A stretch of DNA of 64,000 nucleotides from Spinacia oleracea. Taxonomy: Eukaryota > Streptophyta > Magnoliopsida > Caryophyllales > Amaranthaceae. Position 1 is the stretch's first letter; each line of letters opens with the position of its first letter. Positions 4,961 through 33,100 of the stretch are shown piece by piece. Both the position numbers and the translations under genes were made by a program. The notes below the pieces were generated by a model that did no database searches, had not been told where the DNA came from, and worked only from the letters and a program-made list of their open reading frames with translations. The stretch is taken from positions 142,480,361 to 142,544,360 of the forward strand of contig NC_079492.1 in NCBI RefSeq assembly GCF_020520425.1. The letters are read 5' to 3'.

Positions 4961-5010
4961 TACTAAGTATTATTCTGTGTTTCTATCACCAGCAAAAAAA
5001 AAATTAATAT

Positions 5011-5444
5011 TGTTCCGGTGTGATTTGGGAACGGTTGGAGATGTCTTGCTGGTTGAGTGCTACTGTTATCCTGTTGATATCCTGCGCAGATAACAAAGAT
5101 GAACTAGCCTCGAGGGTGATTCGAGGATCCCCCCTCCGATGCTAAAGTCAGATATGATGAGTGATAAGTATTTTGGTTTTTAGTGGAAATGATTGTGTTT
5201 GCGTACCTTTTGTCATAAATGAAGCCCATATATATAGGCGCGGGTCGGGCGTACGGACAAATGGGTCCTACCCGATTGATAGCGACCCGTTGACCTCTTG
5301 GTTTGGTCACGTGCCTCCCCCCTACCGGCTTGTAAGAGATGCTGGTAGGGAATAATAACTGCCGTTAAGGATTAATAATAACTGGTCACGTGCCTCCTTA
5401 ACAGTTTGGCGATGCTACCAGCCAGCTGGTAGCATACCCGTACA
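5011..5444 (-). repeat. 3' LTR of the Retand-like element
   Basis: 434 bp. On the minus strand it starts TGTACGGGTATGC and ends CCGGAACA (TG...CA). The only difference from the other LTR that I see is an extra C in the run near 5130. It carries the TATA motif at about 5228-5236. Confidence 0.95.
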
Positions 5445-5460
5445 ACTAGCCCCCTCAGAG
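5445..5460 (-). other. Polypurine tract of the Retand-like element
   Basis: CTCTGAGGGGGCTAGT on the minus strand directly abuts the TG of the 3' LTR, where the plus-strand primer for reverse transcription is expected. A second copy, also joined to the sequence TACA, lies at 5511-5529. Confidence 0.75.
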
Positions 5461-5680
5461 TGAGCATATCTGTCTTGACTGATGTGCTTGCTCTGAAAAT
5501 AGTGCTCTCCCTACAACTAGCCCCCTCAGACTGCGCGCTTTCCGCGAAATGCTGGTGTGTTTATGTGTTAAGTGCTGATTAGCTTTCTCGTAGTGAATAC
5601 CACCTGTAATTTTGCTGAAACTAAGCAGATAGGGTGTCCTGCTCCCTCTTACCGATATGCTCCTTTGGGGATGCTTGGAC

Positions 5681-5820
5681 GCTGACTAGTCCCTTTGAGA
5701 TTTTGGATGCTGACTAGCCCCCTTGAGATTTTGGATGCTGACTAGCCCCCTTGAGGTTTTGGATGCTGACTAGCCCCCTTGAGATTTTGGATGCTGACTA
5801 GCCCCCTTGAGATTTTGGAA
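5681..5820. repeat. Five 28-bp tandem copies of a PPT-like motif
   Basis: Units start at 5681, 5709, 5737, 5765 and 5793. Each reads GCTGACTAGCCCCCTTGAG followed by ATTTTGGAT on the plus strand. On the minus strand each contains CAAGGGGGCTAGT, close to the true polypurine tract GAGGGGGCTAGT. Units 1 and 3 carry single changes; the rest match. Confidence 0.9.
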
Positions 5821-6235
5821 TTTTTTAGGAAGTATTTTGAATTTGTACCGCTTAAATTTATTCCACGTGTGATGCATCTGCGTGCTATGCGACGCGTGTC
5901 GCTTTATCATTTTATTTCAATGGCTGAGATTTGCTCTGTCCTTTCAACTGCCTTTAACTGTCAAATCGCCCGTTTTCCTCGATTTTTGACTATTTAACTT
6001 TCTTTTCTTAAAACGTCAAAACACTTTCGCTCTTTTCTTCAAACTTTTCTCTCTCTTTCTCAAATCTTCTCCTTTGTTCCTGCGAGTTATTTTTTCGGCG
6101 CTGTTTCTGTTGCTGACTGCGGTGCTTGCGGAAGTGTTGTACCTCGGTTCTGGGCTGCTAAATTTCCGTTGTGCGAGAAGGTATAGTCTTTTTTGTTTTT
6201 GTTTCTTCCTTCGTATAGGTTTATATTTGGGTGTA

Positions 6236-9200: not shown

Positions 9201-9452
9201 TTTGCTGCCCACCGTTGTGGCGTTCATGGTATTGGCCTTACCAAGGAGGACTGTGAGGATATTGAGTATGCCTTCCTGGTGGAGGAAAAGCACAAGGTAC
9301 CAACCGGTTGGGAGTCACAGATCATTCCGGAGGAGATCATTCAGAATGCTGATCCCTTGACTCTCCCTCCCATTGAGCTGAAGGAAGAAGACTACCTGGA
9401 TCCTGCCCTGCTGTCTTCCAGTACCAACCAGACGGATCATCAACAAGTTTGA
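6236..9452 (+). CDS. Antisense spliced accessory gene of the Retand-like element (PF04195-like 'putative gypsy type transposon' protein)
   Basis: Three exons inferred: 6236-7628, 7751-8763 and 8847-9452, with GT-AG borders (TTG|GTATGG, ACCAG|GCC, AAG|GTATGC, GTAG|GCC). Phases agree and give about 1,003 residues. Start chosen at the ATG of MSSERDSDNV; an in-frame ATG lies 54 codons upstream. Exon 1 has an acidic N-terminus and then a core (FPLHPFIEKVFRAWNVCLAQ, VAFTWLLSFKQWP) that fits the plant transposon domain PF04195. Exon 2 is basic and Pro/Ser-rich with a KKTKR-like basic patch. Exon 3 is a long coiled coil (about 8890-9110). Such extra ORFs, opposite to gag-pol, are typical of Retand elements; their role is unknown. 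It is not a host gene. Confidence 0.8.
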
Positions 9453-9776
9453 AAGTGCGGGCAGTCATCACCGGTATCATCCTGTGGTTCATCTGGCGTT
9501 GCTGCTTTTAAAGATTAGTTTATTTTTTTTAGACGCACTTTTGGTATCAGCTGTTTGTGGCACTTTTTGCCCTGGGATATTTTATGTTTTGTTTTTGTAA
9601 ACTTTACCTTGTGCCATTTTTTATCAGCTAACAAATGTCAGTTTTGGTGTTGGCTGTCGAATTTGCTTTATTCAGATGGTGTTGCTCTTATGCTTATGAT
9701 ATTGTGTTGTTTGTTTTATTTTTCTATTTTATGCTTGCCCTTATTTATGCAATTGTGCTGTTTGAATCTGGTATTT
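9453..9776. other. T-rich spacer after the antisense gene
   Basis: Likely 3' UTR of the antisense accessory gene. I see no ORF with family resemblance here; the short frames are T-rich and low in complexity. Confidence 0.4.
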
Positions 9777-10735
9777 TACCCCGAGTCAGCAAGCTGATAG
9801 TAGCCTTGCTGACTTACTTTAAGGGTTTTGAATCATGATGTTTGACTATACATTACCCCGAGTCAGCAAGCTGATAGTAGCCTTGCTGACCTACTTTAAG
9901 GGTTTGATTCGTATCACCCCGAGTCAGCAAGCTGATAGTAGCCTTGCTGACCTACTTTAAGGGTTTGAATCACGATTTTTGATTATACATTACCCCGAGT
10001 CAGCAAGCTGATAGTAGCCTTGCTGACCTACTTTAAAGGTTTGATTCGTATCACCCCGAGTCAGCAAGCTGATAGTAGCCTTGCTGACCTACTTTAAGGG
10101 TTTGAATCACGATTTTTGATTATACATTACCCCGAGTCAGCAAGCTGATAGTAGCCTTGCTGACCTTACTTTAAGGGTTTGATTCGTATCACCCCGAGTC
10201 AGCAAGCTGATAGTAGCCTTGCTGACCTACTTTAAGGGTTTGAATCACGATTTTTTGATTATACATTACCCCGAGTCAGCAAGCTGATAGTAGCCTTGCT
10301 GACCTACTTTATGGGTTTGATTCGTATCACCCCGAGTCAGCAAGCTGATAGTAGCCTTGCTGACCTACTTTAAGGGTTTGAATCACGATTTTTGATTATA
10401 CATTACCCCGAGTCAGCAAGCTGATAGTAGCCTTGCTGACCTACTTTAAGGGTTTGATTTGTATCACCCCGAGTCAGCAAGCTGATAGTAGCCTTGCTGA
10501 CCTACTTTAAGGGTTTGAATCACGATTTTTTGATTATACATTACCCCGAGTCAACAAGCTGATAGTAGCCTTGCTGACCTACTTTAAGGGTTTGATTCGT
10601 ATCACCCCGAGTCAGCAAGCTGATAGTAGCCTTGCTGACCTACTTTAAGGGTTTGAATCACGATTTTTGATTATACATTACCCCGAGTCAGCAAGCTGAT
10701 AGTAGCCTTGCTGACCTACTTTAAGGGTTTGATTC
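9777..10735. repeat. 14-unit tandem array with a hairpin in each unit
   Basis: Core unit ACCCCGAGTCAGCAAGCTG...CTTGCTGACCTACTTTAAGGGTTTGA. Units alternate between about 61 bp (spacer TTCGTATC) and about 76 bp (spacer ATCACGATTTTTGATTATAC), so the array is a higher-order dimer of about 138 bp. Each core holds the inverted repeat GTCAGCAAG / CTTGCTGAC around an 11-nt loop. Unit 12 has a GTCAACAAG change in one arm. The array sits between the 3' ends of gag-pol and the antisense gene. Confidence 0.95.
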
Positions 10736-10815
10736 TTCTGCTTTGAATTCCTCGACTTTCTTTCATTTCATGGACCATAACAGGCCTGGCTCAATCGGCC
10801 TTTTTGGGTTAGTGA

Positions 10816-13800
10816 CTACACATAAAACTTTCTAAGGACGCTGGCGTTCCATGAATTTTTTAGTGCTGTTCCACCCATATCCATCAGCCTAAAAGCTCCT
10901 GGTACGATTTCTTCCCATATCTGATAAGGCCCCTCCCAGTTTGGGGTTAACTTCCCTTGGACCTTTGCCTTGCCTGTAGCTGCAGTTCTGCGGACCACCA
11001 GGTCTCCTACTTCAAGTTGTCTGTGTTTTACTCTTTTGTTGTAGGCATTGCTTATGCGCTGCTTGTAAGCCGCCGATCTGATTTCTGCTCTGAGTCTGAT
11101 CTCTGGTAGAAGATCCAGCTCCTGCTTTAACAGTTTACCATTCTTGTTTTCTTCATAATGCTGGATCCTGAATGTAGGTAACCCTACTTCTGCTGGTATC
11201 ACTGCTTCTGATCCGAAACATAGACGGAATGGGCTCTCTCCCGTTGCTTCCTTAACGGTGGTTCTATTTCCCCAAAGTATCTCTGGAACAATATCGGCCC
11301 AACCAGCCTTATAGTCGTCTAGCTTCTTTCTCATTGCTGCCAGTATCTGTTTGTTGGCAGCTTCTGCCTGTCCATTGCTTTGGGGATGACAAACAGAAGA
11401 GTAGGCAAACTTGACTTTGTACGTACTCAAAAAACTTTGAACTGGTGAGCAATCAAACTGTACTCCATGGTCCATCACGATTGCCATTGGTAATCCGAAC
11501 CTGGTGATTATACCTTTCCATATGAACTTTTTGACCTGATTTGCAGTTATCTTTGCCACCGGCTCTGCTTCTATCCATTTGGGAAATAATCGACTGCCAC
11601 TATCAGATATTTTCTTCCACCGGATGCCGTTGTGAATGGTCCCAGAATGTCCATTCCCCACTGGGCGAACGGTATCGGATTTAGGATTGGCATGAGATCG
11701 TTTGCAGGACGATTAATGACTGCTGAAAAAACTTGACATTTTTCACATTTCTTGACGTACTTTTGTGCGTCTGTTAGCATTGTCGGCCAGTAGTATCCTT
11801 GCCTTTGGCATTTCAGTGCAAGGGTTTTTCCTCCCTGATGATTTCCACACACTCCTTCATGTATTTCTTCTATAAGTCGTGCCGATTCGTATGCTGATAT
11901 GCATCGTAACAGAGGCAAGCTAAAACCCCGTTTGTAGAGTTGGCCTCTGATGATTACGAACCAGCATGAGTTTCTAATCAACCTTCTTGCTTCCGTTTTT
12001 TCTGCAGGCAGGGTTCCATCTCTCTTGTATGCCCACAAGGTGTCATACCATTCAGGTTGGCTCGTGATTACCATGACCTGATTTGCCAATACTTCAGTGC
12101 TCCTTCGGTGCATGACCTCCATCATTACTGATTTTACCAGAGCACTTGAGCTGGCCAGTTTTGACAGGGAGTCTGCCAACATGTTCTCTGATCGGGGTAC
12201 TAATTTTATTTCGAAGCTTTCCAACTGTGCCGCTGACTGTTTAAGCTTTTCGGCGTATCGTTTCATGGATTCTTCCTTCGTTTCATATTCTCCTGAGAAC
12301 TGGTTTGCTACCAGCTGTGAGTCGGTTGTAAGCCTGAGCCTACGAGCACCAGCTGCCGTGCAGATCTGTATGCCAGCGATTGCGGCCTCGTATTCTGCCT
12401 CGTTGTTTGATGCCTGGAAAGAGAACTTAATAGCATACTCGAACTGGTCTCCTTCCGGTGAGGTAACTATTACCCCCGCTCCTGACCCTGATTTGGTGAC
12501 CGAGCCGTCTACTGCTACTTCCCATATTCCTTCCTTTATTTCCTCCTCCTGGTATGATGCTTCGACTATGAAGTCAGACAGTGCTTGGGCCTTTATAGCC
12601 ATTCTGGGCCGATATTCCATGTGAAACTCTGATAGTTCAATCGCCCATTTTAGGAGTCTACCTGATGTGTCCATTTTTTGCATTGCTTTTTCCAGTGGGT
12701 AGTTTGTGAGGACTTGGATCCCGTGTGCATCAAAGTAAGGTCTCAACTTTCTGGCTGCAATCAATACTGCCAACCCCAATTTTTCTATCAAGGAGTACCT
12801 CGTTTCTGCTTCTTGCAGGATGTGGCTGACAAAGTACACCGGTATCTGTGTTTTATCTTTCTCTATGATCAGAACTGCTGCTACTGTGTGTTGAGAAGCA
12901 GATATGTATAGCTGCAGCGTGTCCCCTTCCTCTGGTCGAGCTATTGTGGGTAGGACTTGCAGGTGCCGTTTTACTGCCTCAAAGGCTGCTCTTTCTGTTT
13001 CTCCCCACTTGAATTTCTTGTTTTGTTTTAACACGTTGAAAAAGGGCAACGCCCTATCTGCTGATTTGCTAATGAACCGAGTCAATGCGGCCATTCTTCC
13101 TGTTAACTTTTGCACGTCTTTTATGCAACCGGGTTCTGGTAGATTCATAATTGCATCTACCTTATCTGGGTTGGCATCGATTCCCCTTTCGCTTACTAGG
13201 AAACCCAGGAACTTTCCTGATCGGACCCCGAATACACATTTCTTGGGGTTTAACTTCATCCTGAACCTCCTCAGAGTTTCGAAAGTTTCTCTCAAGTCGT
13301 CGATGTGGTCACTGGCCAATCGGCTTTTAACTATTGAGTCATCCACATACACCTCTATGTTCCTCCCTTTCTGGGAAGCAAATACCCTATCCACCAACTT
13401 CTGGTAGGTTGCTCCTGCATTCTTCAACCCAAATGGCATAGCCTTATAGCTGTATACCCCTGAATCTGTGATGAAGGCGGCCTTCTTTCTATCGGCTTTA
13501 CACAAGCTGACTTGGTGATACCCTGAGAAGGCATCCAGGAAACTCAAAAGAGCGTGGCCACTTGTTGAATCTACCAGCCTATCGATTCGTGGCAATGGAT
13601 AGCAGTCCTTGGGGCACGCCCCATTCAGATTGGTAAAATCTACGCACATTCGCCAACTGCCATTTGACTTTTTTACCATGACTACGTTGGCCAACCATTC
13701 GGGGTAATCACAAACTTCTATGAACCCTGCTTCCAGCAGCTTTTCCACTTCTTCTTTTATTGCAGCATTTTTTTCACTGGAGAAATTTCTCTTCTTTTGC

Positions 13801-16556
13801 TTTACCGGCCTGACTGACTTGTCTACATTCAGACGATGCACTATGATGTCAGGGCTGATACCGGGCATTTCATCTGCAGAGAAGGCAAAGACATCTGCAT
13901 TTTCTCGTAACAGGCCGATGAGATTGACCTGCTGATCTGCCTCCATATCGGCACCTATTCGTACCGTTCTTTCTGGAACTCCTTCTACTAATTCAATTTC
14001 CCGAGTTTCTCCATCTGCCGCTGGCCTTGGGATGCAAACCGGCCTTTCATCAAAATTTTCCATGCTCAAATCCCCTCTCTTTCTTTTGGTTGGCATGTTT
14101 GCTTCTCGGGCAAGGTTGGTTTTCGGCACCATCCTTCCTGGTGCCTTTATCGCTGTCAGATAACACGATCTGGCAGTCTCATGACTGCCATGTACCCTTT
14201 CTGTTCTTTCCAGATTTGAGAGATATATCATGGTCAAATGATATGTGGACACCACCGCCTGTGCGTCATGAATGAATGGTCGACCAATTATTACGTTATA
14301 CGCTGCTGGTACTTTTATCACCAAAAAGTCGACCATTAAGTCTCTGGCTGATGATCCTCTACCTACTTGAACCGGTAGACGGATACTGCCTTCTGGATAG
14401 ACGCTGGCTCCAGAGAATCCGATAACGGGATAGCTCACCCTTGTTAACTCTCCGTGATCTATGTTCAGCTGGGTGAAAGCTTCCCATAATATGATGTTCG
14501 CAGAGCTGCCTCCATCAATTAGGCATCTCTTGACGGGGAAGTTTGCTATCTCGAGTTCCAATACCAGCGGGTCATCATGGGGATATATAATGCCGCGACA
14601 ATCGTCCGAGGTGAACGTGATGACCGGTAGGGGGATTGGTTCCGGCCATTTCCTTGCGCTATGGTAACTCACCAAATGCCTGTGCTCCTCTAGATTTCTT
14701 ATTGCCCCGTTGACTGTACCTCCATGCACGGGCCCTCCAGAGATCACCCAAACCGTGGGTCTTTTTCCCCTGTCGGCCCCATCTTTGCCTGTTTCCGGTA
14801 ATGACCGGATTTCTTGCCGGGATGGTGGTGCCTGTTCAATCCTACCAGTGGGTTGTGCATACCCTGGCTGAGTAGGTGTATATGGGGCATGACTATGTGA
14901 ACTGCCCTGCCTGTTATTTCCTCCCTGGCCTTCCTGTCGAACCCTGTACTGGGATAGGTATCCCCTTCTTACCAGCTCTTCGATGTTATCCTTGAGCTCT
15001 TTGCAATGCTCCGTGTAATGACCATGATCATTATGAAAAGCACAAAAGTTCTTATTGTTACCTGGGGCATCCATCGGTAACGGTTTTCTCCACGCTGCCG
15101 ATTTATTTACTGCGTAGATCGTGGCCCTGGCGGTGTTCAGGGGAGTGTACACCTGGTAAGCCCCTACCGGCTGTTGTCTGTTCGGATATCCTCCTCTCTG
15201 CTGATGGCCCTCCTTTCTACCGTTATCTTTCCGGTAATTGTGTTGCTGTATGGGAACATGATCCTTCTTGGCCGATTGTACTGCCTGATTTCCCCCCATG
15301 GGTGATATTAGCATCAGCTCATCACTTCTGATATACTCGTTTGCTTTTCTCAAGGCCTCCCCCAGCGAGGTAAATGACTTTCTTCCCAGGTACCTTTTGA
15401 ACTCGCATTCCTGCATCCCTCTCAACAGAGCCAAGACGGCTATTTCTTGCTGTAAATCTGGTATTGTGATGGATTCGTTGTTAAAACGAGTAAGGTATTC
15501 TCTCAGCGGCTCCTTCGGCCTTTGTGAGATTGACATCAGCTCTCCAGATGTTTTCTTTCGTTCAACCTTGCTAATGAACCGCCTCACAAAGTCCTCTTGG
15601 ATCTGCCGAAAACTGAATATCGATCCGGCCGGCAACTTCTTATACCAATCGGCTGCCACCCCTGATAATGTGGTTTGGAACACTTTGCACCACATGGCAT
15701 CTGAGTCAGAATACAGCATCATGTGTTGTTCGAAAGCGGTGGAGTGATTTTCGGGGTCTGTGGTTCCGTTGTATTTGCACGTCGGCATCTTTACTTTCTC
15801 CATAGGTTGCTCCAGTATACCCCTGCAGAGTGGGGAGTCTTTGGGGTGTATGGTTCGCCTCATCGGCTCCTGATGAGGTAGATATCCTTCATATCTATTC
15901 CAACCTGGTTGTGGAGACTGTACGATGTACTCTTCGTGATACGGTGTCGATTCCCTACCAGCAGGAAACGACCCTTCTTGCTCTGACACCGACTCCCGGC
16001 GTCTAGTGGACCTTTCTCTGCGCCGAGAGCTATGCCTTTTTCTTCTACCCGGATTTTCACTCTGTACAAGTATTGGTTCAGGTTGTGCTGGCAGTACCAC
16101 TTCATGCTCTAGGGTTTCGTAGAGATTTCTAACCGGCATCACACCCGGGCGGTTGCCGGTAACCACGATCTGATTTCCCTCCGTCCTCCTTGAGGACAGT
16201 TCAGCCATTGCTTTCATGACGGCCGACGCCGTCAGCAGCTGTTGTGGTGTGAACCTTTGGGACAACGCCGAGAGGTTGCTCTGAATCTGTGGGGGTGATG
16301 GGGAATCTTGTTCCCTTTCTTCCATGGACGTTTCGTCGTCTATGATCACGTCGTTCGGGTCTTCAAAACCCGGGGGGGCAATGCTTATCTGTGACTTGAG
16401 TGTTTTTGGGGGAGGATCTGTAAGTGGTGTGACTTGGCTGGTTGAGACAGGTAAGAGAGAAGGTTTGACTGCGGGTTGTGCTACTGATGTTGGTGTGATC
16501 ACTGCTGATTGTGGGAGATTGTTGTTTTTTCTAGGTTTTTTGTTGTTGGTATCCAT
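10816..16556 (-). pseudogene. gag-pol polyprotein of the Retand-like element, one frameshift in integrase
   Basis: Starts at the ATG at 16556 (MDTNNKKPRKN). The open frame continues upstream into the LTR, but that part lies before the LTR TATA box. Gag has an RS-rich basic stretch, a retrotrans_gag domain and a zinc-knuckle-like C-x2-H...GH-x4-C motif near 15010-15055. Protease is DGGSSAN near 14500. RT has FLDAFSGYHQ and the YVDD active site at about 13340. A gypsy RNase H is followed by a second RNase H (VAVDGS near 12500). Integrase has an HHCC finger (about 11740-11870), first Asp near 11645, second Asp near 11475 and Glu near 11365. The frame changes at about 11580-11584, between the first and second Asp; the first frame stops at 11571, the second ends at 10816. 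A single lost base explains it. Confidence 0.93.
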
Positions 16557-16590
16557 GGTGGCTGATTTACTTGACAAGGTTGGGAGATCC

Positions 16591-16606
16591 CCTCCTTCTA
16601 GCGCCA
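16591..16606 (-). other. Primer-binding site candidate
   Basis: TGGCGCTAGAAGGAGG on the minus strand begins two bases inside the 5' LTR, where a tRNA 3' end would pair to prime reverse transcription. It begins with the TGG expected from the CCA tail. I cannot name the tRNA. Confidence 0.6.
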
Positions 16607-16608
16607 AT

Positions 16609-17041
16609 TGTTCCGGTGTGATTTGGGAACGGTTGGAGATGTCTTGCTGGTTGAGTGCTACTGTTATCCTGTTGATATCCTGCGCAGATAACAAAGATGA
16701 ACTAGCCTCGAGGGTGATTCGAGGATCCCCCTCCGATGCTAAAGTCAGATATGATGAGTGATAAGTATTTTGGTTTTTAGTGGAAATGATTGTGTTTGCG
16801 TACCTTTTGTCATAAATGAAGCCCATATATATAGGCGCGGGTCGGGCGTACGGACAAATGGGTCCTACCCGATTGATAGCGACCCGTTGACCTCTTGGTT
16901 TGGTCACGTGCCTCCCCCCTACCGGCTTGTAAGAGATGCTGGTAGGGAATAATAACTGCCGTTAAGGATTAATAATAACTGGTCACGTGCCTCCTTAACA
17001 GTTTGGCGATGCTACCAGCCAGCTGGTAGCATACCCGTACA
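16609..17041 (-). repeat. 5' LTR of the Retand-like element
   Basis: 433 bp, TGTACGGG...CCGGAACA on the minus strand, paired with 5011-5444. The gag reading frame happens to stay open through the 3' part of this LTR and the primer-binding site. Confidence 0.95.
16825..16834 (-). promoter_or_regulatory. TATA box in the 5' LTR
   Basis: CTATATATAT on the minus strand downstream of a GC-rich stretch. This is the likely core promoter for the genomic RNA and would place R/U5 below about 16800. Confidence 0.55.
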
Positions 17042-17574
17042 AATATTCTAGTTGCTCCTCTACAAACTCGTGCACCATCGATCAGAAGTATATCATATGA
17101 CACTTTAGTAATGGATTAATTTTACGATGACCCCTTTGACAAGAATTATCAGTTTTCCTAAATGCAAATCTTTCCAATAACTTGAAATCCTATTAATTTG
17201 ATATATTCTAGAAAGAGACGCATCTGGGGCAAATAGTGTTATCGTGTATTTAATTTTAATGGGGTGAGAAAGTCTCATCTCTTGGTACACAGATCACAAA
17301 ATCCTCACTATATACAGAATCTGTACAATAATATTTTTTAATGAAAAGATAATATTCAATAAAAATGAAACTTGATTTTCCAGGCTACTCCAATCAAAAT
17401 AAATGGAATTCACGTACTTAGAAGAAAAGAAAAATAACACTCAAATCTCTAATTATATTAAATGTATATTTTATGGCTATCTTACAACCTGAACACCACT
17501 CTCGGATGTTAATAATTATATTTAATGTTTGAATTATTGATATTTGCCCCATTCAAATTGAAAAAATTAAGGCC

Positions 17575-17582
17575 TATAAATA
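17575..17582 (+). promoter_or_regulatory. TATA box of small secreted peptide gene 1
   Basis: TATAAATA lies 121 bp before the ATG at 17703. Blocks upstream (about 17405-17415 GGAATTCACGTA; 17484-17515) recur upstream of the paralogue at 23725. Confidence 0.6.
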
Positions 17583-17660
17583 CGATCTATAGGTTAATTG
17601 GAATATCCAAGCATTGCAACAAATTAAGTCGATCTAACAAATAATAATAGAAAAAACCAA

Positions 17661-17685
17661 TATATATATATATATATATATATAT
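17661..17685. repeat. (TA)n microsatellite in the 5' UTR of peptide gene 1
   Basis: About 12 TA repeats between the TATA box and the ATG at 17703; absent from the paralogue at 23725. Confidence 0.85.
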
Positions 17686-17702
17686 TGTTCAACTAAATAA
17701 TA

Positions 17703-17996
17703 ATGGCTCAACATCTGAAAAAGTCTATGGTAGTGTTGATGGTAATGGCAATGGTTGTAATGTCGGCCTTTGTTGTAATGGGTGATCCAAACCCAGAATT
17801 AGTAAAACTTCCAGCACAACTTCCAGCAAATGTGTCGGGTGCAGTGGATACTGATATTGTTAGTGCCACTGCCCCGGCTGGAGATGACGAACCACCCGTT
17901 AATGGTTGTGTAAATGTTAAAGTCGTTGGTGGTGTCATCATCTGTGGCAGCCTCGCAACTGCTTCCGTTTCCGATCCTTCAAATGATGGCAACTGA
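17703..17996 (+). CDS. Small secreted two-cysteine peptide, paralogue 1 (97 aa)
   Basis: Single-exon gene. The first ~26 residues (MAQHLKKSMVVLMVMAMVVM then SAFVVMG) form a basic start plus hydrophobic core, a classic signal peptide. The mature part is short and acidic, and ends in a conserved block NGCVNVKVVGGVIICGS with the only two cysteines, 12 residues apart, which could form one disulfide. It shares start, signal peptide and cysteine block with the gene at 23725. A TATA box lies upstream. I do not recognise the family and assign no function; a secreted peptide ligand or defence peptide is only a possibility. Confidence 0.72.
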   Translation: MAQHLKKSMVVLMVMAMVVMSAFVVMGDPNPELVKLPAQLPANVSGAVDTDIVSATAPAGDDEPPVNGCVNVKVVGGVIICGSLATASVSDPSNDGN

Positions 17997-18212
17997 ACTG
18001 TTCGATTGTTACCATCATTTTGCAACGACGTTATTTAATTATACTTATTATTAAGTTTACTTGTTTTATTTTCAAGTATTTATTTACTTCTACACTTCTA
18101 CTTCTACTCATGTGTTTTTGTGCCTCTCGAAGGAAAGGGCAAAAAGAAAGGTCTCTCAGTTTGGTTGAATTTTATACAAGTCTCTAAATGATATTAATAC
18201 TATCACTACGTA

Positions 18213-18571
18213 CTTCCTCGGTCTCTTTTTATTCTTTACGTTTTCCTTTTTGGTATTTCAAAATGTTCTTTATATTTCTTTTTATATTATCACATAAATG
18301 ACTTAAATTAGTATTCTATCCAAATTTGTGTCCAATTATTATTTTAACCATTTAAATTCATTGGGTCATTTAATCTCTCACACTTTTTCATTGGGACATA
18401 AAATTTTTCTCATTTCCCAATATCAAAATTTTGATAAAAGTGAAAACATTATAAATAAACGTAATTTATCTTGTTTAAATAAAAAAGATTGAGGAATCTC
18501 GATTCAATTTAATTAATCGTTAAAACGCGTGAAAAATATCAAACGTAAAGAACAAAAAGAAACGGAGGGAG
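18213..18571. mobile_element. Stowaway-like MITE
   Basis: Starts CTTCCTCGGTCTCTTTTTA, ends AAAAGAAACGGAGGGAG, flanked by TA at 18211-18212 and 18572-18573. Inner termini TTCTTTACG / CGTAAAGAA also pair. It lies just downstream of peptide gene 1. Confidence 0.75.
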
Positions 18572-18674
18572 TATATTTCATTCCTTTCTTAACGTTTTTG
18601 ATTTTTACCATTTCGGTTTTAATTAATTTTATTTTTATTTGTTTATTTTCGCCCCACAAAAATAATGTGTACTA

Positions 18675-18880
18675 TCTTCGTTCCGGAAATTAAGTACTTT
18701 ACGTTCACTATTTACACGAATTTTCGTACAATGTTTAATCATTAATGTATCCAATTTTGTAAGAGAAGAAATTACAAAAAGTTGATTTTCATTTTGACAA
18801 TATATATCGAGACAAATTTAATACGACCCAACATGATACTCCTTAATATTGTAACGTAATGTACAATTACTATTCGCACA
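18675..18880. other. Fragments of further TA-type MITEs
   Basis: CTATCTTCGTTCCGGAAATT at 18675 and GTACAATTACTATTCGCACA at 18861-18880 match termini or subtermini of Stowaway-like elements elsewhere in the window. A matching right end (AAGATCATTTTGAAACGGAGATAG) is at 20560-20590. The intervening elements may have inserted into one of these. Confidence 0.35.
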
Positions 18881-19010
18881 ATTATTAATCCAACCTTTAC
18901 CCGATTTTCTTTAATTAAGCCTACCTATGCGATATTTCTAAATAATCCAACATTTATGACCCAACTACTATTATTAAGCCTGGATGACCGGTTACCTGCT
19001 ACAAAGTCAA
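18881..19010. repeat. Extra tandem copy of the TIR of the element at 19011-20007
   Basis: About 125 bp, beginning ATTATTAATCCAACC and ending GGTTACCTGCTA, repeated directly at 19022-19142 with few differences. Confidence 0.8.
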
Positions 19011-20007
19011 GGAAAATTTGTAATTATTAATCCAACCTTTGCCCGATTTTCTTTAATTAAGCCTATATATGCGATATTTCTAAATAACCCAACCTTTATG
19101 ACCCAACTACTATTATTAAGCCTGGATGACCGGTTACCTGCTAAAAAGTTAACGTTAAAAACGTTGACAACCTAAAGTTGGTTTCCCTGCTAAAATATTG
19201 GACACGTCATCATCACTTGCCACCTAAACAAGGATTTCATTTTTTTTTTCAAAAAACCCTTAACCCTTCTCTTCTCTGTACCTTGTTTCAATTCCTCTCT
19301 CCTCCATTACTGCTGCTTCAACCACAATTGTACTGGTTCATGACATCATCAGCGATTTTCTTGTGAAAATAGGTGACTTCATCCACGCGCATTCAAATTT
19401 CGTCTCCAAGATCGTACAATTGAAGGTGAACTTACGAACCTTAGCGTTTTTGTTCCTGTTTTGGTAAATTTTGAACTTTGGCTTTCCTTGATGGTCAGTT
19501 CGTAAAAACCCGAGCTGTTGCAATAATATAATTTTTTTTTATGTTGTGGGATGTTGGTTGTTGTGGTCTTGTTGAAAATTTAGAAAGAAAAAAAACCTTG
19601 AATTTGAAGAAGATCCAGATCCAACAGGCAATTGTTTTACCCAAGCCATAGCAATTGCTGATTATTTTTGATGAACTTCGAATGGAGAGGTATGAGGGGT
19701 CGACAATGGTGGAGAAGAGGTAGAAGAGAAATAATGGAGAGGAGTTCAGAGATGAAGCAGAAAATCGCAGAAGAGATAGAGAGGAACGAAAATTAAAATA
19801 CGGAGTAGCAATTAAAGAAAATAAGGGGGGGGGATTATAATTGTTATATGCCACGTAAGGGTGAATACCGCCTATAGCAGGTTAGTAACTTGTTAGGCTT
19901 AATAAGAGTAGTTGGGTCATAAAGGTTGGATTATTTAGAAATATCGCATAGGTAGGCTTAATTAAAGAAAATCGGGCAAAGATTGGATTAATAATTACAA
20001 ATTTTCC
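19011..20007. mobile_element. Non-autonomous TIR transposon (~1 kb)
   Basis: The left end GGAAAATTTGTAATTATTAA and the following ~135 bp recur inverted at 19866-20007 (ends ACAAATTTTCC). The core (19160-19860) holds no recognisable transposase. Superfamily is unclear; long TIRs would suit a Mutator-like element. I could not define a target duplication. Confidence 0.65.
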
Positions 20008-20112
20008 AAAAAAATATGGACAAAGTAAGAAAAATGTGGGGAAATGTGGTTGTGTATAAGAAAAAAAAAGAATAAAAGTAAGAAAAAGTGATTGAAAAAT
20101 GTAAATGGATGA

Positions 20113-20445
20113 TGATAAAGGTCGTAAGTTGCGACAACATTTAGTTGTCGCAATATTCTTACGTGTCGCGGTTTAATTGATACATATAGGCGACACGTAG
20201 GCTAAGAGTCATCATAATATTTTTACTATCAATGCAATATTTTTACTAAGAAAATATGTAAATAAGGTAGTCGGTATAAATAAGGAAACAAATTAGAATA
20301 TTAAGATTTTCCTAGCTTTTTTTGAAACATTTAAAATAGAATATATAAATTAAATATTTTAGTTTCCAGTTTAAATCATGACACATAAACATGCCATGTC
20401 ATCATTGTGACACGGCTTAAATGTCGCATGTTGCGACCTTTATCA
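20113..20445. mobile_element. 330-bp TIR element, copy 1
   Basis: Ends are TGATAAAGGTCGTAAGTTGCG and the inverse, ATGTTGCGACCTTTATCA. Further inverted blocks (GTCGCAA / TTGCGAC, ACACGT) lie inside. Copy 2 is in opposite orientation at 26548-26877. No coding capacity and no obvious target duplication. Confidence 0.75.
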
Positions 20446-20671
20446 TTTTCGAATGTAAATATTGTGGGGTAAGAAGGATAAGGTAGTAAATTTTCATGTG
20501 TAAAAATGGAATAAAGCAAAGTGTAAAGAATATTATGAAACAAATTAAAACGGAAAGTGTAAAGATCATTTTGAAACGGAGATAGTATACAATAGCGAGA
20601 ATTTGGGGTCATAGTTTCCATACTTTGTACTAATTTGTCAAAATGTAAAAAACTTTCGGGAGTGGAAGTAG

Positions 20672-20985
20672 TGTATTAGGAATTATATAGTATATAGAAT
20701 TCCTAGACTTATGTAAAGTTACCTAATGTTAATAGGTTCATGTTTTAGGAGTTTATGTGGTGTTAGGGTTGTGTAACCGTGTATTATAAATACATCAATA
20801 ATAATATACGAAAGGCTAAGCCGTTTTCTCCTAATCTTCTCTGAGTTTAACATGGTATCATAGTGTAAGCTAAAGATAATTTATAGATTGTTTTTTTTTA
20901 CAGCTATTACAAACAAAGAACAATACAATTATCCCATTCTCCTAGCCATACCAGCTAGATCATGGGCTTCCCTAATTTATAGATT
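20672..20985 (+). mobile_element. Copia-type 5' LTR and primer-binding site remnant
   Basis: TGTATTAGGAATT...GAGTTTAACA (20672-20852) looks like a short LTR with a TATAAATA-like motif. It is followed at once by TGGTATCATAG, close to the initiator-Met tRNA primer site common in copia elements. The body is interrupted by the CACTA MITE at 20986 and the hAT element at 21388. Only one LTR is seen. Confidence 0.5.
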
Positions 20986-21253
20986 CACTACAAGAATTTG
21001 TATCTTTAACGACAACCTAATTATGACGGGTCAAAAATCCCGTCGCAAAAGCCTTTTGCGACGGGGCTAACAACCAAACAATGACGGGAATAACCGTCGC
21101 AAATGTCTTTTACGGCGGATTTATGACGGGATTTTCTATTAACGACAGCCCCTTTTATGACGGGTTCGCGACAGGAAATCCCGTCGTTAATCAACGATTA
21201 TTGGCCTTTCGCGACGGGAAATCCCGTCGTTAATAAAACAATTTCTTGTAGTG
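20986..21253. mobile_element. CACTA-type MITE, copy 1
   Basis: Starts CACTACAAGAATTTG and ends CAATTTCTTGTAGTG, with a 3-bp duplication ATT on both sides. Inside are many direct and inverted CGACGGG / CCCGTCG motifs, like the subterminal repeats bound by En/Spm transposases. Confidence 0.9.
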
Positions 21254-21387
21254 ATTGTTGGAAGAGACAACTTTGGTGATCGAAAACCGAGTGTCAAAAT
21301 AAAGTTTGAAGCTAGTGGTCCAATCATGACATGGTTGTTTGTTCATTGTGTAATCAACTGTCAACCGTAACTGAGATGATCGAGGAA

Positions 21388-22487
21388 CAGGGCCGTCTTA
21401 AACATTTCGGAGGCCCTGTTCTAATCTTGTCCAAAACTAAAAAATGTGGCCCCTTATATTAAAAAGAAATTGCGATAATTAAAATATTACTTTATGAGCA
21501 TTACAAATTTACAATACAATAGAAGGAAAAAGCAGTAAGTCATTAATACAAAAATGAATCAATGATAAATGGAAATTACAACAACACAAATAGTAGGAAT
21601 TCACGGTAAGAATTGAAAAAACAATTTGTAATATACAAGCATAAATTTTGTAATTAACAGTCCCATAAAAAAAATTGAAATTAGCAGGAAATAAAATTAG
21701 CTAAAAAATCTAATATTTTTGCGAGATAAGCACGAATTCACTAAATTAAGAACTTGATAAGCACAAAAATTATGAGATAATCACGAATGAAGAAAAGAAA
21801 TTGTAAAATTGTAATTAACAAGAAATTAAAACCTAAACCACAAACTAACTAAATTAAGAAGAAAACATTCAAAACAACAATTGTAATTTCGTTGATTTGA
21901 TAAATTCGAAAATCGAAAATACCTTTTCCTCTGACTCTTGTTATTCATCTTTAACAAATCCCTAATTCCCTAAATTCCCAATCTGATTTTTTTTCTTGGA
22001 ATGAATTTGATGATTTGTTTGAGAATAGTAGAAGTATTTAAGGGGTAAAAATCTAGCCATTTGATATGAAAGTAGCCTGTAATTTGCGAAAAACGGTTCC
22101 ATTGATAACAAAATCTTTTGTTCTTCGGTAAATTTGAATATCTAAATAATCTGAATATCTAATGTAAAGCAGTTGAAATTTGAAAATAAAATTTTTGGAA
22201 TTGGGAATTTGGAATAGGAAACAAAAGTAATTTATGGGAGATGAATGTGAGTGATTGAAATATTGAATGGAGTTATTATGGAATATGGAGCGTGATTCAT
22301 GAATCTTGGGGAAGGAAAGTGGAAACTAATTCGGGAAGTTGGTGGGCTGTTGATGCGGTGATTCCCAGGAGCATTCTCATTTAATTTTTTTTTTTTTAAT
22401 GTAGGTTGGGCTTTTCGAAAACGGGCCCTTATTTTTTGGGTGGCCCTGTGCTGTTGACCAGGATGCACAGGGCCACCACCGGGCCTG
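21388..22487. mobile_element. Non-autonomous hAT element (1.1 kb)
   Basis: Bounded by an exact 8-bp duplication TCGAGGAA (21380-21387 and 22488-22495). Ends are CAGGGCCGTC and CCGGGCCTG, imperfect inverted repeats of hAT type. GGCCCTG motifs recur subterminally. No transposase frame was found. Confidence 0.85.
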
Positions 22488-22649
22488 TCGAGGAATAATA
22501 ATAGAAGAAGATGAACAATTGTATCATTATTATTTATTAACCTGAAAATATCATTGTGCAACAATCGTAAAAATCGAAAGTAGAAGGATACTTATTAAAC
22601 ATTTCCCACTATTTTAAAATTATAGAGGGATTAAATACAATAACTTATA

Positions 22650-22902
22650 CTTCCTCCGTCTCGCAACGTTAATCACTTTCATGCATGCATGTGAATGCAT
22701 AATTTGATTGTCATTATCTTAAATTCTTTTCAAGCAAAAATTATAAAAGGTTGATATTTTGAAAATACACATTGAGACGAATCTAACAAGATCCCACATT
22801 ACTATGTTTCATTTAACATATAAATCACCAAAAATGGTCAAAGTAGAATATGTGAATAGTGTAAAAAGTCCAAACGTTGCAAGTATTTTCAAATGGAGAA
22901 AG
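22650..22902. mobile_element. Stowaway-like MITE (diverged right end)
   Basis: Starts CTTCCTCCGTCTCGCAACGTT after TA. The right end GTCCAAACGTTGCAAGTATTT...GGAGAAAG is a diverged inverse. Sequence AAAATTATAAA-AGGTTGATATTTTGA is shared with the fragment at 62329-62517. Confidence 0.6.
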
Positions 22903-23039
22903 TGCGTAATGCGATACAATAAGACCAATTTTTTACCAAACAGTTATACTTTTCAATCAAATAGTTACTCAATGTGATTAAATAGTTATATTTTATACTT
23001 TTTAATCAAATACGGAGTAGTTATAGTTTCTAGTTAAAT

Positions 23040-23560
23040 ATTGATATCAACGATCGTACGCAAGAGTAAAGAACAATATCTACATTATTGAAATTTAATA
23101 ACAGCTCAATTAAATTTGAACTTATAACCTCCAGCTCCAGACAATTAATTGCTGGCTCTTGAACATAATTAAACATTATGAAAGTGGAATTCACGTATCT
23201 TTTTTATTTATTTCTAAATTATTACACGTACGTACAATGGTATATACAAGCTAAAGATTTTTCAGATATTATTGTTGAGGCAACTTTAATTAACTTGGGG
23301 CTGCAAATCGTGCATCAAAATAATAACAAGAGAGTGACATCTCTTAGCAAATATTCCCTCCGATTTGAAAATAATAGTATATTTTTCGGTTTTGTTTGTT
23401 TAAATTAATTATAATACAAGTAATAACTTTTATATTTCGATCACGTATTATTATTTAACTAGAATTATTAAGAACAAATCAAAGTTCTATAAAAAAAAAA
23501 ATTACAATCAAAGTCGTTATCCATTCCAGAGGTACTTATAATTTATCTAACAACTTGAGC
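23040..23560. other. Upstream region of peptide gene 2, part of an old duplication
   Basis: GTGGAATTCACGTA (23185) matches AATGGAATTCACGTA (17403). AACAACTTGAGCACTACTAT (23548) resembles ACAACCTGAACACCACTCTC (17485). No other gene is visible. Confidence 0.5.
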
Positions 23561-23632
23561 ACTACTATCTCGATCAGATGTTAATTGATAATTCCAATAA
23601 ATCTTATAAAATATTTGCCTCCTTAACCTACA

Positions 23633-23642
23633 TATATAAATA
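23633..23642 (+). promoter_or_regulatory. TATA box of small secreted peptide gene 2
   Basis: TATATAAATA, 83-92 bp before the ATG at 23725. ATATTTGCC precedes it in both paralogues. Confidence 0.6.
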
Positions 23643-23724
23643 GTTGGGGTTTTGAGGGGTAAATATTTAAGAATTATATTGTATCAAAATAATTTATAAC
23701 AATATAGAATAACTGAAAACCAAA

Positions 23725-23973
23725 ATGGCAAATCACTTGAAAAAGTCTATGGTGTTGATGATAATGGCAATGTTGGTCATGGCCGTTGTTGTTTCGGCTG
23801 CTCGAAACCTCGATGAAATACTGCCGGTGAACGTCAATGGTGGTGTTGTTAGCATTAATGGCACCATCGGAAACCCGACTAGCGGTTGCCTGAATGTCAA
23901 AGTGATTGGTGTCAAACCCTGTGGCAGCGTTACTGCTCCCGGGTTAACCGTTCCTAAGGAGAATGGAAACTGA
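23725..23973 (+). CDS. Small secreted two-cysteine peptide, paralogue 2 (82 aa)
   Basis: Single exon. The N-terminus (MANHLKKSMVLMIMAMLVMA then VVVSAA) is a strong signal peptide, probably cut after SAA or nearby. The short mature part contains NVNGGV and a C-terminal block SGCLNVKVIGVKPCGSV with the only two cysteines, 11 residues apart. Compared with the gene at 17703, it lacks about 15 residues from the middle. The MA-HLKKSMV start, GC-NVKV block and NGN C-terminus are conserved. The family is not one I recognise. Conservation of only the signal peptide and the Cys block suggests the mature C-terminal peptide is the active part (inference). Confidence 0.75.
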   Translation: MANHLKKSMVLMIMAMLVMAVVVSAARNLDEILPVNVNGGVVSINGTIGNPTSGCLNVKVIGVKPCGSVTAPGLTVPKENGN

Positions 23974-24245
23974 TTTTAAGTCATTTTTTTCCCGCAATAT
24001 TTTCATCTTTTTGTTTTTGTTGTGTTCATTTATTTTTTCTTGAATTTTCTCTTCCTTTTTTTTAATGTATTTATCTAAATTCTAAGTGGGGGTTTCAAAA
24101 GAAAACTCTCTTCCACTTTCAAATTTTCATTTGGTTGAGTTATTTGTAAGTCTCTCAACTTACTTATTTGATGAGATTATTATTTCAATGGCACGGGTTA
24201 CAACATAAATTTTATCTTTTATATCGGCATTTATTAGTTTTTATA

Positions 24246-24767
24246 CTTCCTCCATATTTTTTGAAATGACACAATTATTTAGACCTATCAATGAACGATT
24301 TGAAACACTTATCTTCAATTATGGATAAGAAAAAATTATAAAAAGTTGACATTTAAAAAATATTTCACTACAAGAATTTGTATCTTTAATGACAACCTAA
24401 TAACGACGGGTCAAAAATCTCGTCACAAAAGCCTTTTGCAACGGGGCTAACAACCAAACAAAGACAGGAACAAGCATTGCAAATATCTTTTACGACAGTT
24501 AACGACGGGATTTTCCATTGATGACAACCCCTTTTATGACGGGTTCGCGACAGGAATTTCTGTAATTAATCAACGATTATTGGCCTTTAGCAACGGGATT
24601 TCCCGTCCTTAATGATACACTTTCTTGTAGTGTTTACTGAGACGGATCTAATAAAACCCCACACGACTATGTTTTTTCTTTATTATAAATCACAAAATAA
24701 AGTCAAATGGGCTTGTATGAATAGTGTCCATAACTCAAGTTTGTCATGTAAATAAGAACAGAGGAAA
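24246..24767. mobile_element. Stowaway-like MITE with a nested CACTA MITE
   Basis: Starts CTTCCTCCATATTTTTTGAA and ends TAAATAAGAACAGAGGAAA; TA at 24244-24245 and 24768-24769. The element at 43665-43930 is the same family without the insert. Confidence 0.8.
24366..24632. mobile_element. CACTA-type MITE, copy 2
   Basis: CACTACAAGAATTTG...CACTTTCTTGTAGTG with TTT on both sides. Close to copy 1 at 20986-21253 but with more changes in the GACGGG motifs. Nested in the Stowaway-like MITE 24246-24767. Confidence 0.9.
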
Positions 24768-25637: not shown

Positions 25638-26547
25638 AAGTATATGGCTATAGTGGATTATTGGGCGGGTTCGGTCATAGAGCAGATTATTGAACGGGTT
25701 GGGTCAAGGTCGGGTAATGAAAGAGTCATTTTAAGCGGGTCACGGGTTAATAATGGCCGACAGGTCAATAAACGAGCAAGAAAGAATAAGCCGTACGCGA
25801 ATACAAGTGAATACGAAGGTATATTCGTAATTTTTTACTATATCATGATTATTTTATTTTTTAAAATATAGTGTTATAAGTTAATTTGATCTTATATTAA
25901 CTTTGTCCAATTAATAAGAGCTATGCCCAATAAAAACTATATTAACTTAAACTTAACCTTATGTCTATTGGGGTACCATGTCCATGACCAGCTCTATATA
26001 TGCTAAAGATTGTTTGAACTTTAAACAAATTATTGTACTTTCTCCGTCATTTTCTCTGTATACTCCGTATTTATTACTTTTGGTAGAGTTGAAGGGGACA
26101 GATCACACCTTGTGACTTTTAGATCATATGGTCGAGCCTATCAGCTGTGAAATACTTGAAAGTGGCTCAAGCTTAGATGGGTTAATAGGATTCATTCTTC
26201 TTACTTAATTAATTGAAAAAATTGGAAAAGATAATGATTTGGTTCAACTGAAACTAAGAAGTACACTTTGGTTTAGGCAGGGCTCACCCAGGCCACATAC
26301 TGTCATACTCCACTACAACTTTACAGGCAACAACTACATCTATTCAAACAAGTAAACATTACAAATTAAGTACTAGTTGTTTTTTTTAGCTTGCACACAT
26401 GTTAGATGTTTACTACTATTACTAGTCAAAATTTGGCTCATTGAGGATTATGTGAATGATGATGATGAAAGTATGAAACCACACAATAAATTGGTCAGCA
26501 GTTCAAGTTTCTCATTAACTATGTGTGAAATATATACGAAGCGAAAA
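25638..26547. other. Intergenic, no gene seen
   Basis: Short frames only, without family resemblance. No repeat ends recognised. Confidence 0.4.
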
Positions 26548-26877
26548 TGATAAAGGTCGCAACATGCGACCTTTAAGCCGTGTCACAATGATGACATGGC
26601 ATGCTTATGTGTCATGATTTAAATTAGAAACTAAAATATTTAACTTATATAACCTATTATACATGTTTCAAAAAAAAGTAGAAAATTCATAATATTCTAA
26701 TTTATTTGCTTGTTTATATCGACTACCTTATTTACATATTTTTATAGTAAAAATATTACATTGATAGTAAAAATATCTTGATGACGCACAACCTACGTGG
26801 CGCCTATATGTACCAATTAAACTCCGACACGTAAGATTGTGACAATTAAATGTTGTCACAACTTGCGACCTTTATCA
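26548..26877. mobile_element. 330-bp TIR element, copy 2 (inverted relative to copy 1)
   Basis: Starts TGATAAAGGTCGCAACATGCG, ends ACTTGCGACCTTTATCA. Its plus strand matches the minus strand of 20113-20445 along nearly its whole length, with scattered differences. Confidence 0.75.
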
Positions 26878-30180: not shown

Positions 30181-33100
30181 ATGGCGGATGAAGAAGATCT
30201 CGCTAACCCCACCTCGTATCTGATCAACCATCCATCAAAGATTGCTCGCCCTACTCTCTCATTGGACAAGAAGGTGGAAGAGGGCCCCACAACCCCATCT
30301 AGAATCATCGACCGTATGATCAATTCCAATCACTACCCTTCTCCTTCTAGAACGATTTTGAGTGATCGGTTTATTCCGTCTAGAACTTCTTCCAATTTCT
30401 CGCTTTTCAATCTTACGCCGTCGCCTTCTTCGAGTTCGCCGCAGAGTGGTAAGCAACAGCCGCAGCCCGATGGGGCCCGAGGGGAGGAATCTCCTAGTGC
30501 AAGTGCGTATACTTCGCTTCTTCGGGCTGCGCTTTTCGGGCCTGATTCTGGGTCTTTCTTCCCTGGTACGCCGGATAAGGGGTGCGCCGGGAATCGGAAT
30601 ATATTCCGGTTCAAGACCGAGACGAAGCGGCCGTTGCCATCGTTGATGCCGTTCGGGCCCGATGATTCGATCCCCGGGGTTAGTTATAGCCCCGTTAAGA
30701 CTCCCCGGAAGGTTCCTAGGTCTCCATTTAAGGTATAATTTTAACGTTATTGGTATAATTTTAACTGCATTGACTTAAATTTTGGTTCTTGATTGTGGGG
30801 GTTTTGTGGGTATGGGCTTTTTGTCAAATTGTAAGGGATTTGCATGTTTTAATTAATGGCATTTTCTGGGGATGAGATTTTCTTGAATAGTTGACTCTGA
30901 TGGATTTTGATTAAAGTTGACCTTTTGTCCAATTGGATAACATAGCGATGATTTAGGGTTTGAGATAATTGATGATCAATAATTTGTGTCTTTGATTGTT
31001 GTTTAAAACTCTTTTCGGTGGTGGGTTTTGAGTGGAATCCGATTCTCTGGACTGGCATTTTTGTAGGGTTTAATGTTGGATCTTGTTGATGGTTTTTGTA
31101 TTAGGTACTGGATGCACCGGCATTGCAGGATGATTTTTATTTGAATTTGGTAGATTGGTCTTCACACAATGTACTTGCTGTGGGATTAGGCAATTGTGTT
31201 TACTTGTGGAATGCTTGCAGTAGCAAGGTAAGCTCTTTAATCTTTCATCTTTCTGTATGCTATTCTTTGTGTGTGTGTGGACAATGTAGGATGATCTTCA
31301 TATGGTTATATATCAGGGTGGTTATATAATCCTGAAATTTGACATGATTCCACTGCTTAGGGTTCTTGGTGGATGTTCGCTTATGTCTGAATATAATCAG
31401 TTTTTCAGCGCTTTTCTTGTATGGAGTCTTCTGATGATATTTGTTGCTTTAATTGGAACAATGTTGTTAGAATATGTATATTTACGTACACAATCATGTA
31501 AAAGAATTGTAATCCTTATACATGTTCTAACAAATGTGTATCTGCAGGTGACTAAATTATGTGACTTGGGGACAGATGATAGTGTTTGTTCAGTTGGATG
31601 GGCTCAACGGGGGACACATCTAGCTGTTGGTACAAACAATGGCAAAGTCCAAGTAATTAACGCTTGTTTTTTACTGAAAATTGTTTCCTTTGAAGTTTGA
31701 AGATATTTAGGTCAGATATTGAGATTTATAAATTGTTGTATACAACTCCTCAGCAGCATTAACATGTGGAGCATTGCTCTTAACAGATTTGGGATGCTTC
31801 TCGGTGCAAAAGGATTAGAACTATGGAAGGTCATCGGTTCCGTGTGGGCGCGCTAGCGTGGAGTTCTTCTGTGTTGTCTTCTGGTAGCCGAGATAAAAAT
31901 ATATTCCAAAGAGATATACGTGCTCAGGATGATTATGTCAGTAAACTAACTGGACACAAGTCAGAGGTTTGTATTAACTGCTTCTCAGCCAAGACATTCT
32001 AGTTTTGCTGTTTTTTTTTCTCAAAATGTCATTCTTTATGATCTGACTTGTAGTGGTGTGACTCTCTTATCATTCAATGTTGTGCTGCTTATCTTTCTTT
32101 TTGTTCCTATGATCAAAGTTATAATAGTTATTTATTTATTTAGGTTTGTGGGCTTAAGTGGTCGTATGATAATCGCGAGCTAGCATCAGGCGGGAATGAC
32201 AATAGAGTAAGTTTCTCAAGTTCATGTTGGTTGGAATTAATGCTGGCAGCTCTAAGGCCGAATTGCTTATATAATGCTTTCTTTTCCTCAGCTTTTTGTG
32301 TGGAACCAACATTCAACTCAACCTGTATTAAAGTATGCTGAGCATACAGCAGCAGTGAAAGCAATTTCCTGGTCTCCCCATCTTCATGGGCTTCTTGCAT
32401 CTGGTGGTGGTACTGCTGACCGATGCATACGTTTTTGGAATACAACCACTAATTCACAGTTGGGATGCATGGACACTGGTAGTCAGGTTAGCTTTTCACG
32501 ACCGCCTAGTTTTACATTAGCTTTGTGCCTTTCTACCTCTTTATTAAAATATGAATGAATGGATATTTGCTACTTTCACTTCTTAAGATTACTGTGAAGG
32601 GTTTTGAGTGGTTGCCATTTTCCAAAAGGCCAATGTTCTAAAAGTAATAAGCACACTTTATTCCAAATCTTTGCAAGGAATATGTTATAGTAGAAAGAGC
32701 TAAAACTATACGTACATGTGGAAAGGGGGATATATATAGCAATGATCAGTTTCTTTTGCAACACCTTAAAACTAGTTGGTCAAACATATTTTACTCTAAT
32801 TTACTTTTTCAGTTGTCATTAATGACTTAGGTCAGTTCTCATTAATAGAATTAGGTTTGGAGCTTTATTTTGAATAGCCTTGTTAGGTTCTTCCAGGAAC
32901 CACAAGTGTAGGTTATTATAGGAGTGTCAAAGCCCCCTTGCAATATGGAGCACTTAGGATGTAAAATTCACTCCAATTTCCCTGAAAACTATTGTGGTGT
33001 AAATCGGGATGAAATGTAATAATGTAGGTGTATTTGGTGTGAAGTTTAGTCACGGGGTTCTAATGACTTGACTTGAGAACATTGTGGACATACTACAGGT

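Follow-up and report, generated by a model that had tools for sequence, protein, structure and literature searches.

A pair of neighbouring two-cysteine genes in spinach as possible precursors of secreted single-disulfide peptides

The stretch of DNA considered here, hereafter the window, comprises 64,000 nucleotides of the Spinacia oleracea genome (NCBI RefSeq assembly GCF_020520425.1, contig NC_079492.1, positions 142,480,361 to 142,544,360 of the forward strand) and contains two short neighbouring genes, gene 1 and gene 2, each encoding a protein with a secretion-like N-terminus and exactly two cysteines. With positions counted from the first letter of the window, the coding features are the following.

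17703..17996, plus strand: gene 1 coding region, 97 amino acids, single open frame with stop; ATG context AATAATGGC
17703..17783, plus strand: gene 1 signal-peptide-like region, residues 1-27, with KK, a hydrophobic core and a possible V-M-G cleavage site
17904..17951, plus strand: gene 1 Cys block GCVNVKVVGGVIICGS, with C69 and C81 and 11 residues between them
23725..23973, plus strand: gene 2 coding region, 82 amino acids, single open frame with stop; ATG context CAAAATGGC
23725..23802, plus strand: gene 2 signal-peptide-like region, residues 1-26, with KK, a hydrophobic core and a possible S-A-A cleavage site
23884..23928, plus strand: gene 2 Cys block GCLNVKVIGVKPCGS, with C55 and C66 and 10 residues between them

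Both proteins begin with MA-x-HLKKSM followed by a strongly hydrophobic core (best 12-residue hydropathy 3.0 in each); the signal-peptide call is made from the sequence and its hydropathy, and the cleavage sites are placed by eye. The two cysteines of each protein lie inside the block GC-x-NVKV-x(6 or 5)-CGS, with six variable residues in gene 1 and five in gene 2, and in either case the second cysteine is followed by a tail of 16 residues. The middles, which are flanked by the signal-like N-terminus and the conserved block, are unequal in length. Gene 1 and gene 2 are neighbouring paralogues: in a tblastn comparison their products are 46.4% identical over 97 columns, that is, over the full length, with an expectation value (E) of 1e-14. 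The remaining tblastn matches all have E of at least 0.56, and no third copy is recognisable within the window. Among the 89 ATG-initiated open reading frames (ORFs) of 50-150 amino acids in the window, only two pairs reach BLASTP E < 1e-3, namely this one and a second (-20569 and +63342) that is situated in repeated DNA. The initial annotation had placed such a two-cysteine gene pair at these positions, with a conserved block GC-NVKV-x(5,6)-CGS in both genes and a variable middle between block and signal peptide. Both ORFs are indeed present and homologous, both carry the block, and the identity of aligned codons follows the proposed architecture, with 19/25 in the signal region, 12/27 in the middle, 11/16 in the Cys block and 3/14 in the tail.

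Do the two frames evolve as coding DNA? Over 82 aligned codons, the proportions of synonymous and nonsynonymous differences (pS and pN) are 0.55 and 0.28, the ratio of nonsynonymous to synonymous divergence (dN/dS) is 0.35 (bootstrap 95% interval 0.17-0.63), and pN/pS is below 1 in all except 0.02% of 5000 bootstraps. As frame controls, the same aligned bases were read, with codons containing stops left out, in frame +1, yielding a dN/dS of 0.54 (71 codons), and in frame +2, yielding 1.54 (73 codons), so that the signal of the coding frame stands out only moderately against frame +1. When the coding regions are aligned as DNA alone, several gaps of a length not divisible by three appear; since both frames remain open, we take these gaps to reflect misplacement in the diverged middle and do not count them as support. 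The data thus support the view that gene 1 and gene 2 evolve under purifying selection, and the claim of duplicated two-cysteine genes with secretion-like N-termini is upheld by the tblastn homology, the block-wise identities and the dN/dS. A dS near 1 suggests that the duplication is old, and the persistence of both open frames after an old duplication would therefore argue for function. The pair has the look of real genes kept by selection, probably for signalling or for another extracellular task.

The following elements are shared upstream of the two genes.

17484..17499, plus strand: gene 1 upstream box ACAACCTGAACACCAC, at -219
17575..17582, plus strand: gene 1 TATA box TATAAATA, at -128 from the ATG
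23550..23565, plus strand: gene 2 upstream box ACAACTTGAGCACTAC, at -175
23635..23642, plus strand: gene 2 TATA box TATAAATA, at -90 from the ATG, aligning with the gene 1 box

When the 500-bp upstream regions are aligned with loose gap costs, their score beats 1000 of 1000 dinucleotide shuffles and all 1726 random segments, which were drawn from the window outside 16500-24500; for the 250-bp regions, the score exceeds that of 997 of 1000 shuffles and of all 1771 random segments. Under strict gap costs the score is equalled or exceeded by 23 of 2000 shuffles, and the regions align best at approximately 17425-17513 against 23492-23585. The box pattern ACAACYTGARCACYAC has exact matches in the window at 17484 and 23550 alone, both inside this best-aligned part, and a third match with two mismatches at 20757-20772 on the minus strand; as the pattern was built from its own two sites, the 0.17 matches expected by chance provide no independent test. 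A BLASTN comparison (E 0.01) yields no upstream match adjoining the coding start; its other two matches connect 18752-18834, located 0.75-0.84 kb downstream of gene 1, with 22738-22799 and 24316-24349. The proposal that the promoters are conserved and were duplicated with the genes is thus supported, though less strongly than it was worded: the duplication probably took in the proximal promoter along with the gene, the evidence for this being moderate. A more extended duplication is not borne out: neither the 3' flank nor the region further than 500 bp upstream shows significant similarity, the score being attained by 178 and by 1403 of 2000 shuffles, respectively.

Searches for relatives outside the window came back empty. 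Neither protein matches a family in Pfam at E up to 10, Pollen_Ole_e_1 included, or a model in NCBIfam at the same threshold. Two single-sequence searches of the PDB returned two matches and one match at E of at least 0.62 (designed proteins and a Fab), and, of the two profile searches, one returned none and the other a single putative cell adhesion protein at E 0.44, all of which are taken as chance. In collections that hold no plant genomes, so that a blank says little, the signal-region pattern, used for GTDB and IMG/VR in place of the Cys block, fits 118 stretches of GTDB contigs and 94 of IMG/VR, none confirmed as a relative, and the gene 1 query has no match among the PLSDB plasmids; for plant genes such blanks are to be expected. 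A literature text search with short peptide strings and a search for two-cysteine peptides of Caryophyllales yielded no paper; no relative was found in the literature on disulfide phytocytokines, mostly reviews, or in the available portions of the papers on lineage-specific secreted peptides of spinach and quinoa (PMC11756074, a general review) and on phylloplanin (including PMC3980785). The family is, accordingly, unmatched in Pfam, NCBIfam and the PDB, which agrees with the statement of the initial annotation that it knew no named family with this block, and is not to be called new on that basis; as plant genes go, the pair is of an ordinary kind, possibly from an unnamed family.

The initial annotation saw in this architecture a processed signal or defence peptide, and the architecture would fit. 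The reading that we favour, tentatively and largely by inference, is that a secreted peptide with a single disulfide is made from each of the two precursors and would act like the CTNIP/SCREW phytocytokines. The N-terminus would direct the chain into the secretory pathway; the variable middle would serve as a propeptide or linker and be removed; the two conserved cysteines would join in one disulfide, closing a 10- or 11-residue loop, the first half of which (x-N-V-K-V) alternates polar and hydrophobic residues; and the peptide around this loop would be released in the apoplast and become the ligand of a surface receptor kinase, as CTNIP/SCREW peptides do with HSL3/NUT and BAK1. What speaks for a ligand is the conservation of the signal-like N-terminus and of the Cys block around a middle of differing length, together with the dN/dS of 0.35, and the presence of exactly two cysteines at spacings of 11 and 10. 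AlphaFold2 returned nothing usable for the full gene 2 protein (mean predicted local distance difference test score, pLDDT, 47.8), apart from a helix that covers its signal region, or for the C-terminal block of gene 1; the absence of a globular fold would be weakly consistent with a short peptide, the weakness being due to the fact that each alignment held two sequences.

The comparison with CTNIPs was made by description: no printed CTNIP/SCREW sequence was found in the available portions of PMC9191895, PMC11331138, PMC12907539, PMC12349381, PMC13157962, PMC13056886, PMC11756074, PMC13205790 and PMC11371470. CTNIPs are short, have a predicted signal peptide and depend on two cysteines for receptor binding, candidates having been accepted with 9-11 residues between the cysteines; they form a small family, with five members in Arabidopsis, some with neighbouring locus numbers, and their genes are often unannotated (PMC9191895). 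The pair shares the short precursor and the cysteine spacing, which falls within the published range; the N-terminus, with its hydrophobic core after KK, looks like a signal peptide as judged from sequence and hydropathy. Unlike in CTNIPs, the first cysteine opens CVNVK or CLNVK, where C and N agree with the name-giving string and V replaces I; the PSGP core ascribed to CTNIPs (PMC11331138) is absent from both proteins; the precursors, of 97 and 82 residues, are longer than the 70 of CTNIP4; and, whereas the active fragment of CTNIP4 consists of the C-terminal 23 residues (48-70) and contains both cysteines (PMC9191895), only the second cysteine lies within the last 23 residues of the pair proteins. 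Because the pair lacks the CTNIP letters as well as the PSGP core and has its cysteines placed differently, we do not file it as CTNIP, and its membership in CTNIP/SCREW is not supported; the CTNIP residues are themselves termed "relatively conserved" (PMC9191895), so that their lack is no absolute test. The pair may, nevertheless, work like a CTNIP. A more specific proposal would place it in an unnamed, plant-lineage-specific family of secreted peptide ligands, closed by one disulfide and marked by the signature GC-x-NVKV-x(5,6)-CGS, that would be distinct from CTNIP/SCREW and have a receptor kinase of its own; this appears rather doubtful.

Several observations weigh against the ligand reading. 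Small secreted single-disulfide proteins need not be signals. Dibasic pairs are absent from both proteins beyond residue 27, and no processing site can be named; the 16-residue tail and the missing PSGP core set both apart from the CTNIP pattern; and no hairpin is predicted by AlphaFold2 for the isolated C-terminal block of gene 1 (mean pLDDT 54.5). To these should be added the lack of a relative in the protein libraries and the bacterial, viral and plasmid collections, the dN/dS below 1 of frame +1, and the fact that all figures on conservation and selection come from two sequences.

Nearly as likely as the ligand reading, and a strong rival to it, is the view that the two genes encode small extracellular proteins of the cell wall, the surface or reproductive tissue, loosely of the phylloplanin or Ole e 1 sort, which would act unprocessed and at full length, the Cys pair just stabilising a short pair of strands. 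The secretion-like N-terminus would suit such proteins, and the conservation is not confined to the Cys block but takes in the signal region and the LPxNVxGxV stretch as well. Furthermore, phylloplanins and Ole e 1-like surface proteins are secreted plant proteins, and the V-N-V-K-V run followed by CG presumably resembles the valine-rich strand and CG of phylloplanin-type segments. Against this view, Pfam is blank for both proteins even though Pollen_Ole_e_1 is a Pfam family; both are short, presumably shorter than the phylloplanins, with two cysteines just 10-11 residues apart; their middle and tail have diverged; and AlphaFold2 finds no fold, which in alignments of two sequences says little. 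If the genes encode plain extracellular proteins, they are an ordinary duplicate; if their product is a receptor ligand, the well-defined signature of the block would provide a handle for orthologues and a short peptide to synthesise, in a field where many short secreted precursors of plant genomes are missed by annotation.

It is unlikely that the products are defence peptides acting directly on microbes, even if duplication, a secretion-like N-terminus and a variable middle would suit them and the block is hydrophobic, with a single lysine in gene 1 and two lysines in gene 2. As a rule, antimicrobial peptides are cationic, whereas the net charge (K+R minus D+E) from residue 28 is -7 for gene 1 and 0 for gene 2 (+1 with R27), which therefore counts against a membrane-active peptide; in addition, only one disulfide is possible in each protein. 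The cysteine-rich plant peptides, such as defensins, lipid transfer proteins (LTPs) and RALFs, combine a signal peptide with a Cys-bearing mature part, as the pair would, yet possess four or more cysteines as compared to two. Inceptin-like disulfide-looped plant peptides act, as the proposed ligand would, through a short loop closed by one disulfide, no match in sequence being claimed; unlike the pair, inceptin derives from a chloroplast ATP synthase subunit and not from a dedicated secreted precursor. For RALF, the number of four cysteines is given in PMC11371470.

Still less probable is that gene 1 and gene 2 are true, diverged CTNIP/SCREW members and, hence, ligands of HSL3/NUT: the two cysteines at 11 and 10 residues would be admitted by the 9-11 filter (PMC9191895), and C-x-N-V agrees with C-T-N-I-P in its C and N and replaces I conservatively by V, but the CTNIP string and the PSGP core (PMC11331138) are both missing and one cysteine only lies in the last 23 residues. 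That both ORFs are chance or dead remnants, as the transposon-rich surroundings and the out-of-frame gaps might suggest, is highly improbable given the full-length homology of two open frames, the bootstrapped pN/pS, and the good ATG context and upstream TATA box of both genes; chance ORFs were rejected on the dN/dS of 0.35.

As to the surroundings, a full-length Gypsy-type long terminal repeat (LTR) retrotransposon occupies 5011-17041 and ends approximately 660 bases before gene 1. Its LTRs are 99.5% identical over 440 aligned bases, and it is flanked by a perfect 5-base target duplication, AATAT, at 5006-5010 and 17042-17046. Its gag-pol contains an RVT_3 domain in addition to RT_RNaseH, and the plus-strand ORFs 6236-7675 and 8068-8829 are antisense to gag-pol; this combination is reminiscent of the Tat lineage. 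Gene 2 is flanked by two CACTA-like non-autonomous elements, 20984-21256 and 24364-24635, which are 87% identical and have the ends CACTACAAG and CTTGTAGTG. The element at 18880-20007 has inverted arms (19011-19123 and 19895-20007, 96% complementary), its left arm region being present in a tandem duplicate (18880-19010 and 19022-19152, 95%). Two inverted repeat copies, 20113-20463 and 26529-26877, are 88% identical, one of them lying between gene 1 and gene 2.

By its gene content the window is plant nuclear DNA. No tRNA and no Rfam family was found in the window. A Pfam scan of ten chosen ORFs of the window gave matches for six and none for four, the matches being a FAD-binding domain, a CDC20/Fizzy WD40 segment, the end of a STAYGREEN protein, two protein kinase segments and the Gypsy-type polyprotein. 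Those that mark neighbouring genes lie as follows.

1575-2135, minus strand: FAD-binding domain
32256-32558, plus strand: CDC20/Fizzy WD40 segment, under the model's full-length cut-off
41555-41995, minus strand: STAYGREEN protein end
53056-53487, minus strand: protein kinase

The ORF with the FAD-binding domain is presumably similar to L-gulonolactone oxidase.

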